Assembly: GCA_022772525.1 (NCBI GenBank)
Contig: JALFAD010000059.1
Span: 1 to 64,000 of the forward strand
Origin: Clostridiales bacterium
Lineage (GTDB): Bacteria; Bacillota; Clostridia; Oscillospirales; Oscillospiraceae
DNA length: 64,000 bases
Direction of reading: 5' to 3'
This document shows positions 15,673 through 35,274 of the stretch, piece after piece. The position numbers and the translations under genes were made by a program. Within the stretch, counting starts at the first letter, position 1. Every line of letters starts with the position of its first letter. The notes beneath the pieces are model-generated. The model worked only from the letters and a program-made list of their open reading frames with translations. It was not told the DNA's origin and ran no database searches.

Positions 15673-15679
15673 ATGTATG

Positions 15680-15862
15680 GTGAAATATTTTGCTGACGCA
15701 AAATGTGAAATAATGCCTCTGGCATTGTGAAATTTTCCGCTGACGCGGAAAGTGAAATGAAGTAAATCCACCCACGCCCGCAGGCATTTCGCATTGCAAA
15801 GCAATATTTCACGCCCGCAGGGCATTTCACAAATCCCGCAGGGATTTATTTCGTTGAAAAAG
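15680..15862. repeat. Hairpin-array repeat, copy 1 (GTGAAAT...ATTTCAC)
   Basis: Hairpins ATTTTGC-TGAC-GCAAAAT, AATGCC-TCT-GGCATT, TTTCCGC-TGAC-GCGGAAA, ATTGC-AAA-GCAAT, GCCC-GCA-GGGC, AAATCCC-GCA-GGGATTT separated by GTGAAAT/ATTTCAC. Confidence 0.9.
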
Positions 15863-16276: not shown

Positions 16277-16329
16277 AGGAATACCACCTTTCTCGCAAGG
16301 ATTATACCGTAAGGAAGAGGGATTGTGAA

Positions 16330-16506
16330 GTGAAATATCCTTCGGATGTGAAATAATACCCTTCGGGTATCGTGATATTTTCCGCTGACGCGGAAAGTGA
16401 AATGAAGTAAATCCACCCACGCCCGCAGGCATTTCACATTACAAATCAATATTTCACGCCCGAAGGGCATTTCACAAATCCCGCAGGGATTTATTTCGTT
16501 GAAAAA
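16330..16506. repeat. Hairpin-array repeat, copy 2 (direct orientation to copy 1)
   Basis: Same backbone as 15680-15862; first two stems replaced by ATCC-TTCG-GGAT and ATACCC-TTCG-GGTAT, still paired. Confidence 0.9.
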
Positions 16507-26771: not shown

Positions 26772-27500
26772 ATGTCCGGACATTCCAAATGGCATAACAT
26801 TCAGAAAACCAAGGGTGCGCAGGACGCCAAGCGCGCGGCTGCCTTTACGAAGATCGCCAAGGAGTTGATCGTGGCTGTGAAGGAGGGCGGCAGCGCCGAC
26901 CCCGCCTACAACTCCCGCCTTGCCACCGTCATCACCAAGGCTAAGGCCGCCAATATGCCCAACGATAACATTAAGCGGTGCCTTGAGAAGGCTGCCGGCG
27001 CCGGCGGCGACAACTACGAGTCCATCACCTACGAAGGCTACGGCCCCGGCGGTGTCGCCGTCATTGTGGAGACCATGACCGACAACCGCAACCGCACCGC
27101 CGGTTCCATGCGTCACCACTTCGACAAGTTCGGCGGTAATTTGGGCGCTACCGGCTGCGTCAGCTGGTCCTTTGACAAAAAGGGCGTGCTGGTCATCGAC
27201 AACTCTGAAGGAGAGCTGGACGAGGACACCGTAATGATGGATGCCATGGACTGCGGCGCGGACGACTTTGAGGCAGAAGATGACTGCTTCACCATCTATA
27301 CCGACCCCGACGACTTCAACGCCGTAGCCGACGCCCTCACCGCCAAGGGCTACAGCTTCGTCTCCGCCCAGATTGAGATGGTGCCCCAGAACTACCAGAA
27401 GCTGGAATCCGAAGAGCAGATTTCCCTGATGGAAAAGCTGCTGGACATCATGGAAGAGGACGACGACGTGCAGAACGTGTGGCACAACTGGGAAGAGTAA
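26772..27500 (+). CDS. YebC/PmpR family transcriptional regulator
   Basis: MSGHSKWHNIQKTKGAQDAKRAAAFTKIAKELIVAVKEGG. Confidence 0.97.
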   Translation: MSGHSKWHNIQKTKGAQDAKRAAAFTKIAKELIVAVKEGGSADPAYNSRLATVITKAKAANMPNDNIKRCLEKAAGAGGDNYESITYEGYGPGGVAVIVETMTDNRNRTAGSMRHHFDKFGGNLGATGCVSWSFDKKGVLVIDNSEGELDEDTVMMDAMDCGADDFEAEDDCFTIYTDPDDFNAVADALTAKGYSFVSAQIEMVPQNYQKLESEEQISLMEKLLDIMEEDDDVQNVWHNWEE

Positions 27501-27521
27501 TTATCAAGCTCATGAAATGAA

Positions 27522-27561
27522 GGTCTGGCTGTTTTCGAGAGAAAATAGCCGGATTTTTTCA
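27522..27561 (+). terminator. Terminator of yebC-family gene
   Basis: GGCTGTTTTC-GAGA-GAAAATAGCC then GGATTTTTT. Confidence 0.7.
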
Positions 27562-27620
27562 AAAGGGATCGGTTTTTGTGCTGCGGCTCCGGGTTATGCG
27601 TACCCGGGCCGATTGTTCGA

Positions 27621-27792
27621 TTCATACTATTTCTCGATAAAATGGTTAACACCATTTTATCCTGCGCTTATCGCGCAGGCCGCCACTGGCGGCGAGAAAT
27701 GTATGGACTACGTTTTTTAGCGGCGATGCCGCTGACCGCGAGAACGCGGTCTCATAAAACGGTATTGAACCGTTTTATGAAAAACTAGTATC
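27621..27792. repeat. Inverted pair of linker-free four-way-junction hairpin arrays
   Basis: Unit 1: outer TTTCTCG/CGAGAAA enclosing three contiguous hairpins; unit 2: outer ACTA..TTTT/AAAA..TAGT enclosing three contiguous hairpins; outer ends CATACTA/TAGTATC inverted. Confidence 0.85.
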
Positions 27793-27821
27793 ACCACAAA
27801 GAAACAAGGGAGTGGATTTCC

Positions 27822-29276
27822 ATAGTATTCTCCAGTCTGATCTTTCTGTATGGCTTTTTGCCGCTTTCCCTGTTGGCGTACGCTTTGTGCCGAGGCAACC
27901 GCCGGGCGCAAAATTCAGTCCTGCTGATCTTTTCGCTGATCTTTTACGCCTGGGGGGAACCCAAATATGTCCTTCTGCTGATGGCGATGGCCTTCGTTGC
28001 CTGGCTTTGTGCCGGACAGGTAGCAAAAACCGACGGCATCGTGAAGAAGATATGGCTGGCGACCGCCGCAGTGATCGTGCTGGCACTGATCGGATATTTC
28101 AAATACGCGGGCTTGATCTGCGGCATTTTCGGGCCGGTTCCCGAATTTGTGCAGAAGATCGCGCTACCCATCGGCATTTCCTTCTATACCTTTCAGCTGC
28201 TGACCTATGTGGTGGATGTGTACCGGGGGGAAGCGCAGCCGCAAAGGAGCTATTGGAATGTGCTTCTGTACGCAGCACTGTTCCACCAATGCATTGCCGG
28301 CCCCATTGTCCGTTACCAGACCATCGAACAGGAGCTGTTCGGGCCCCGGCAGCCGGAAATTGCTCCCGGTGTGTCCCGGTTCTGTGCCGGTCTTGCCAAA
28401 AAGGTTTTGCTGGCAAATCCCTGCAGCTCCCTGGCAGATACGATGCTGCTTGCCGACAGTACGGCGGCAGACGCAGCCCTTCTGACACAAAACCTGGAAG
28501 CACTGAGCTCCCTGTCCGTTCTGGGGGCCTGGCTGGGCATCCTCGCCTATGCGCTTCACATCTATCTGGATTTCTCCGCCTATTCCGACATGGCCATTGG
28601 CATGGGCCAGATGCTGGGACTGCATTACCCCGAAAACTTCAACTATCCCTATATCTCCCGAACCGTTACGGAATTCTGGCGGCGGTGGCATATTTCCCTG
28701 AGCACCTTTTTCCGGGACTATGTCTACATTCCCCTGGGCGGAAGCCGGTGCAGCGTGCCGCGAATGGTACGCAACACCTTCATCGTCTGGGCGCTCACCG
28801 GCCTGTGGCACGGCGCCAGCTGGAACTTTGTGTTGTGGGGACTGTGGTTCTTTGTTTTTTTAATGCTGGAACGGGCGGGTCTGAAAAAGCTGCTGGAGAA
28901 AATTCCGATACTATCCAACCTGTATCTTCTGGTGGTGGTTGCCGTGGGCTGGGTCATCTTCCGGTTTACGGATATCCGCCTGGGCTTGACGCTGGTGAGA
29001 TCCATGTTTGGCTTAAACGGAAATCCTTTGACAGAATTTACCGCGGAAATACAGCTGCAGAGCAATCTGTTCCTGCTGCTGGCTGCCGCCGTGGCATCCG
29101 TGCCGCTGATGAAGCATTTGAAAGAGAAACTGGAAGTACTGGTTTCCTGCCAGAGATCCTTGGAAACGGTATGGAACGTGGTTGTCTATTCCGTGATCCC
29201 GGTGGTGCTTTTGCTGCTTTCTACTGCCTGTCTGGTAGGGAACAGCTACAATCCATTCATCTATTTCCGATTTTGA
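27822..29276 (+). CDS. AlgI/DltB-like MBOAT O-acyltransferase (start codon uncertain)
   Basis: YLDFSAYSDMAIGMGQMLG, RTVTEFWRRWHISLSTFFRDYVYIPLGG, GLWHGASWNFVLWG; canonical N-terminus VFSSLIFLYGFLPL begins at an ATA codon (first conventional in-frame start TTG at 27858). Confidence 0.85.
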   Translation: MVFSSLIFLYGFLPLSLLAYALCRGNRRAQNSVLLIFSLIFYAWGEPKYVLLLMAMAFVAWLCAGQVAKTDGIVKKIWLATAAVIVLALIGYFKYAGLICGIFGPVPEFVQKIALPIGISFYTFQLLTYVVDVYRGEAQPQRSYWNVLLYAALFHQCIAGPIVRYQTIEQELFGPRQPEIAPGVSRFCAGLAKKVLLANPCSSLADTMLLADSTAADAALLTQNLEALSSLSVLGAWLGILAYALHIYLDFSAYSDMAIGMGQMLGLHYPENFNYPYISRTVTEFWRRWHISLSTFFRDYVYIPLGGSRCSVPRMVRNTFIVWALTGLWHGASWNFVLWGLWFFVFLMLERAGLKKLLEKIPILSNLYLLVVVAVGWVIFRFTDIRLGLTLVRSMFGLNGNPLTEFTAEIQLQSNLFLLLAAAVASVPLMKHLKEKLEVLVSCQRSLETVWNVVVYSVIPVVLLLLSTACLVGNSYNPFIYFRF

Positions 29277-35177: not shown

Positions 35178-35274
35178 AACAGAGTAGGAGACCCCGCGTT
35201 AAGTGCCACCGGGACGGGGAGTTTGCCCGGAGGACGAAGGATTTTTCCACGATGAGGTCACCGCACCCGCTGTT
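35178..35274 (+). ncRNA. THF (tetrahydrofolate) riboswitch-like aptamer
   Basis: AGAGTAGGAGACCCCGCGTTAAGTGCC...GGACGAAGG...GGTCACCGCACCCGCT, matching recalled conserved THF riboswitch segments; upstream of ECF S component + folC. Confidence 0.82.

Follow-up and report, generated by a model that had tools for sequence, protein, structure and literature searches.

The bacterial miniature transposable elements (MITEs), such as RUP, Correia/NEMIS, CIR and YPAL/RU-2, are non-coding, intergenic and stem-forming sequences of less than 200 bp, which carry terminal inverted repeats (TIRs) and are flanked by a target duplication (PMC2229807). CIR consists of two inverted-repeat arms and a linker, and YPAL/RU-2 has a length of 168 bp (PMC2229807). 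The REP, BIME and REPIN sequences, with RAYT transposases, are extragenic and chromosomal, occur in many copies and are often dimeric, in the form of an inverted palindromic pair; the REP unit is a single hairpin of 20-40 bp with a GTAG or CGTC tag (PMC3733652, PMC3116915). Two further groups have been described as RNA. Gut-1 (Rfam RF01706) was annotated as an sRNA (Weinberg et al. 2010, PMC2864571), and the portion of PMC8040213 considered here describes candidate structured RNAs from human microbiomes that are palindromic, with Bacteroidetes examples and possible terminators.

We analyzed a 64,000-nucleotide stretch of DNA from a Clostridiales bacterium (the window), in which an earlier note had pointed out an inverted pair of linker-free four-way junctions between a yebC-family and an MBOAT gene. 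Similar to the MITEs, this block is short and non-coding, both ORFs lying outside its 166 bp, and it has TIRs (TACTATTTCTCG/GAAAAACTAGTA) and a target duplication for which an empty site was found. It differs from them in its 3-bp TNA duplication (MITEs usually duplicate TA), in its TACT termini and in its two linker-free four-way junctions, which are arranged in inverted order. A TNA-duplicating MITE of these bacteria was not found in the literature. The block is very probably one copy of a non-autonomous MITE of approximately 166 bp, moved in trans and folding as DNA. Its family, hereafter family A, is a new family of bacterial mini-transposons of gut Clostridia, of an ordinary kind in a new form, with an unusual twin-cruciform architecture. 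The palindromic microbiome RNAs resemble it in being intergenic structures on both strands, and the part of that text considered notes no match to family A. The features of the window copy are given in Table 1.

Table 1. Features of the family-A copy in the window.
Feature	Position	Strand	Basis
Left target-site duplication, TCA	27622..27624	+	Equal TNA flanks in 60 of 64 scored copies; single TCG in G051
Complete family-A miniature transposable element, 166 bp, native orientation +	27625..27790	+	Homologues in own genome and genus; constant length
Left TIR TACTATTTCTCG, doubling as 5' arm of unit-1 outer stem	27625..27636	+	
Unit 1 hp1 (ATAAAATGGT/ACCATTTTAT)	27637..27660	+	Exact inverted loop in 3 other copies
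Unit 1 hp2 (CCTGCGC/GCGCAGG)	27661..27679	+	Two-sided changes in all 7 pairs (27 copies)
Unit 1 hp3 (CCGCC/GGCGG)	27680..27692	+	Covariation analysis
Unit-1 outer stem 3' arm (CGAGAAA, T, GTATG), inverted internal copy of the terminus	27693..27705	+	
Unit-2 outer stem 5' arm (ACTACG TTTTTT)	27707..27718	+	
Unit 2 hp3' (AGCGGC/GCCGCT)	27719..27733	+	
Unit 2 hp2' (GACCGCG/CGCGGTC)	27734..27751	+	
Unit 2 hp1' (TCATAAAACGGT/ACCGTTTTATGA)	27752..27780	+	Loop inverted between two other copies
Right TIR (GAAAAACTAGTA on +; TACTAGTTTTTC on -), doubling as 3' arm of unit-2 outer stem	27779..27790	-	
Right target-site duplication, TCA	27791..27793	+	

Folding of the window strand with RNA parameters gave -93.3 kcal/mol, compared to a mean of -52.9 for shuffled sequences (z = -9.1), and DNA parameters gave -60.7 compared to -20.9 (z = -13.4); none of 200 shuffles was as low in either case. 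Both folds recovered two adjacent four-way junctions without a linker, each with three hairpins and inverted relative to each other, and all of the stems that the earlier note had listed, six hairpins and two outer stems, were located by the sequence check and the folds. The unit-1 outer stem is longer than that note had it, as it runs on past one bulged T, where GTATG of its 3' arm base-pairs with CATAC at 27623-27627. The proposal that the whole is an inverted duplication agreed with the sister copies, which match their own reverse complements at approximately 63% over the full length. The ends, proposed as ATACTA/TAGTAT, were revised: the exact boundaries, with TCA at each flank, assign TACTA/TAGTA to the element and the remainder to the target duplication.

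Searching the genome of origin with the block returned 11 matches, of which four were full-length, including the window copy. Among 101 sampled genomes of the same genus, 12 contained homologues, as did three genomes from elsewhere in the family. When 85,462 species genomes were scanned by pattern, 80 named loci were obtained, all of them labeled Oscillospiraceae, Clostridia, Eubacteriales, Ruminiclostridium, Bacillota, Pseudoflavonifractor or uncultured bacterium; cultured carriers include Pseudoflavonifractor sp. MSJ-30. Full copies, numbering in the dozens, have a constant length of 165-169 bp and end in TACT...AGTA. The phage, plasmid and IMG/VR records searched for the element, the last by TIR pattern, gave no match. 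The block represents a multicopy, dispersed repeat and is neither a single-locus RNA nor a terminator, and homologous arrays of the kind that the earlier note had proposed to look for occur in its own and related genomes. The position between yebC and MBOAT was correctly given, but it reflects a mobile insertion and not a feature of the locus, the orthologous gap being empty in the relative G051.

In G051, the alignment of this gap runs through the insertion point at 86% identity, and a single TCG stands where the window reads TCA-element-TCA. A 156-bp TACT-ended element of a related family splits an IS200 tnpA gene, and removal of this element together with one TAA restores an open TnpA frame; the uninterrupted IS200 at locus L303, which has 86% DNA identity, reads CTAAGTG, exactly the element-free sequence. 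Another TACT-ended element is nested in the hp1 loop of the sister copy L014, where TAA is duplicated relative to GGTTAATACC. Equal TNA triplets flank 60 of the 64 scored copies: TCA/TCA in 25 of 27 copies of the window subfamily and, among the 37 copies of other subfamilies, TAA/TAA in 32, TGA/TGA in two and TCA/TCA in one. Unequal triplets were found in a few copies (L292, TCA/TAA; L093, TTA/TAA; L081, TAA/TTA). These results show precise insertion of the element at TNA triplets, accompanied by a duplication of 3 bp.

Relative to its triplet, the element was always found in one orientation, with TCA and never TGA, and with TAA rather than TTA; the longer target motif is asymmetric (WTCAG; ATAAR). 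This lock counts against a simple symmetric TNA-cutting transposase, since such an enzyme would not produce it. Both the lock and the asymmetry would fit an element of REPIN/IS200 type. In such an element, an HUH (Y1) or RAYT-like transposase would act on the folded single strand; the left triplet would be target sequence, the right one would form the end of the element itself, and the internal GTATG/GTATT would pair with the target as a guide. Such a system would explain hairpin conservation as well as the lock, and several carrier genomes encode weak Y1_Tnp proteins. In the two main clades, the central base of the left triplet and the internal base are complementary (A:T in 13 and C:G in 11 of 27), although a correlation across two clades does not establish a guide. 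The inverted-pair architecture and the extragenic, chromosomal-only spread also resemble REPINs. However, the element has units of approximately 85 bp with three hairpins each, a TACT terminus and a duplication of 3 bp, and it lacks a RAYT gene at its flanks; it thus does not match REP or REPIN sequences as described. Of five scored copies with a deviant left triplet, four carried the same triplet on the right (L113, L149, L118 and L295, but not L292), which points to a true duplication. The marks of IS200/IS605 derivation, namely the absence of a duplication and an inherited right-end motif, were not found. Furthermore, the Y1 genes lack flanking copies of these elements, and in the carriers G084 and G076 a search for a Y1 gene found none. 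We therefore consider a REPIN/IS200-type origin unlikely.

Candidate genes for the mobilizing transposase were sought in the carriers. The PF01609, PF01797 and PF13586 transposases in the fragmented assemblies of 13-15 carrier genomes were not flanked by TACT...AGTA with equal TNA. A pattern search of nine genomes for paired termini at insertion-sequence spacing gave, among the matches listed, pairs of MITE length only, and no copy adjoined a Y1_Tnp gene of the carriers, save the family-C element inside an IS200 gene. The same genomes contain several unrelated-looking elements of 156-169 bp with the same ends and the same duplication. Under the MITE interpretation, a transposase encoded elsewhere would recognize TACT-type ends and copy or move the element in trans. 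Each four-way-junction unit would form DNA hairpins or cruciforms when the DNA is single-stranded, during replication or transposition. The stems would then stay perfect through template switching or hairpin repair, which would copy one arm onto the other, in addition to any selection by the transposase, and the loops would be left free to drift and flip. A more elaborate version, which we consider improbable, would make the double four-way junction the substrate of a structure-recognizing transposition system common to several 156-169-bp TACT/AGTA families; the internal copy of the terminus would pair with the target triplet and set both the target (TCA or TAA) and the orientation, with the 3-bp duplication still being made. 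Our findings raise the question of what enzyme is responsible for the orientation-locked insertions at TNA, and whether it reads the DNA fold.

The two-junction fold was computed for each subfamily alignment, and most subfamilies yielded it on their own; of 71 copies, L105 and L142 belong to unrelated families. In unit 1, 96.5% of cells were paired and 14 of 33 pairs had changed on both sides, with a covariation score of 0.293, compared to 0.131 for shuffled and at most 0.102 for slid alignments, above every shuffle and slid control. In unit 2, where MAFFT misplaces one hairpin in one subfamily, 95.0% of cells were paired and 8 of 25 pairs had changed on both sides. The covariation proposed in the earlier note was thus borne out in both units, and the neutral decay of the stems that would have spoken against it was not seen: stems stay paired, and loops diverge 2.9-6.3 times as much as stems.

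A very stable fold and strong covariation are also what a structured RNA, either an sRNA or a cis-regulatory element conserved for its RNA fold, would display. However, G.U and A.C events among the stem changes were equal in number (31 and 33), with no preference for G.U on either strand, and consensus stems contained at most one G.U per approximately 70 pairs; the strand-specific constraint expected of such an RNA, with G.U on the sense strand only, was not observed. Four exact loop inversions were found between copies (TAAC/GTTA, TCAAT/ATTGA, AGTC/GACT and GAAT/ATTC), compared to 0-1 in a shuffled-loop null that reached four in 2 of 2000 trials (p about 0.001). Stem arms that remain unchanged around an inverted loop are the residue that hairpin-based strand switching or cruciform exchange would be expected to leave, and these inversions require exchange at the DNA level. 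Among copies between co-directional genes, 10 were sense and 12 antisense, indicating no strand preference. The absence of G.U bias, the faster divergence of loops than of stems, the inverted loops and the absence of strand bias relative to transcription together favor a DNA-level structure. In addition, a scan found no promoter-like site, an Rfam search of the block gave no match at gathering and one chance hit (E = 4), and the orthologous site is occupied or empty depending on the genome. Thus, the stems are apparently kept matched by folding as DNA and not as RNA, and we consider conservation as a structured RNA highly improbable. Covariation of riboswitch grade and a stable, multi-branched fold can stem from mobile DNA, which is a warning for covariation-based RNA discovery.

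We next consider the genes around the copies. Among 51 copies with a gene called on each side (gene calls followed a simple longest-ORF rule, and individual distances are approximate), 25 lay between convergent, 22 between co-directional and 4 between divergent genes, as compared to a background of 28:93:44 at the same loci (Fisher p = 1e-5). The convergent share was therefore 49%, against 13-17% in the background, as would be expected if the element were a bidirectional terminator or mRNA 3'-end stabilizer selected at convergent gene ends. This bias can be explained without a function, since the purging of harmful insertions from promoters and genes would also be expected to produce it. Moreover, the window copy lies between co-directional genes, shortly 5' of the MBOAT start. 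A scan of both strands from 27480 to 27870 for intrinsic terminators (a G+C-rich stem followed by a T-run) found none, in keeping with the earlier remark that the block is more ordered than a normal terminator, and T-runs are unconserved among subfamilies. A terminator or stabilizer role is thus very unlikely. As a MITE, the element would persist mostly where insertion is harmless, at gene 3' ends and especially in convergent gaps, and in some cases exactly within a stop codon, which is regenerated by the duplication. The duplicated triplet is the stop codon of a neighboring gene in 12 of 68 cases. Targeting of stop codons was considered but not adopted: an intergenic gap offers few TNA sites and the duplication regenerates the stop, so that special targeting is perhaps unneeded.

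The carrier genomes also contain families B-E (examples are L272, L273, L275, L280, L289, L291 and L287), which have TACT/AGTA ends, lengths of 156-169 bp and different internal folds, one being a single long hairpin. A central GTCTCATA motif is common to B, D and E, and a B-like copy (L287) is located on contig C84 of the window's own genome. Derivatives of 47-50 bp consist of one terminal hairpin alone (L049, L050, L114, L124 and L295), some with equal TNA flanks (TGA/TGA in L295 and TAA/TAA in L124). Judging by these sequences, bare ends may be mobile, or the derivatives may have arisen by internal deletion. Other mobile repeats were found inserted within family-A copies, in the loop or an arm of hp1/hp1': L014 (contig C32 of the same genome, approximately 64500-64715, just beyond the window) carries a TACTAAACC palindrome, L136 an AGGTTATCGG...CCGATAACCT element with a duplication of approximately 10 bp, and L055 a CAGACTGTC...CACGCTG element. 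Family-A elements seem to be hot spots of insertion, which has also been reported for REPs.

Gut-1 resembles family A in occurring in the same genus, with three hairpins per unit and many copies per genome in inverted pairs approximately 18 nt apart; it differs in its unrelated sequence, its GTGAAAT linkers and its lack of TACT ends. Two inverted pairs of Gut-1 units lie in the window itself (15678-15856 and 16328-16501). All 10 Gut-1 hits in this genome form inverted pairs, five in number, with a spacing of 17-19 nt, and the 30 hits in genome G002 are mostly in inverted pairs. From this arrangement, the Gut-1 "sRNA" looks like half of a dispersed inverted repeat of 3+3 hairpins with GTGAAAT linkers, and it seemingly presents the same covariation trap as family A. 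The window also contains a THF riboswitch (RF01831) at 35178-35274, with a score of 80.6 bits.
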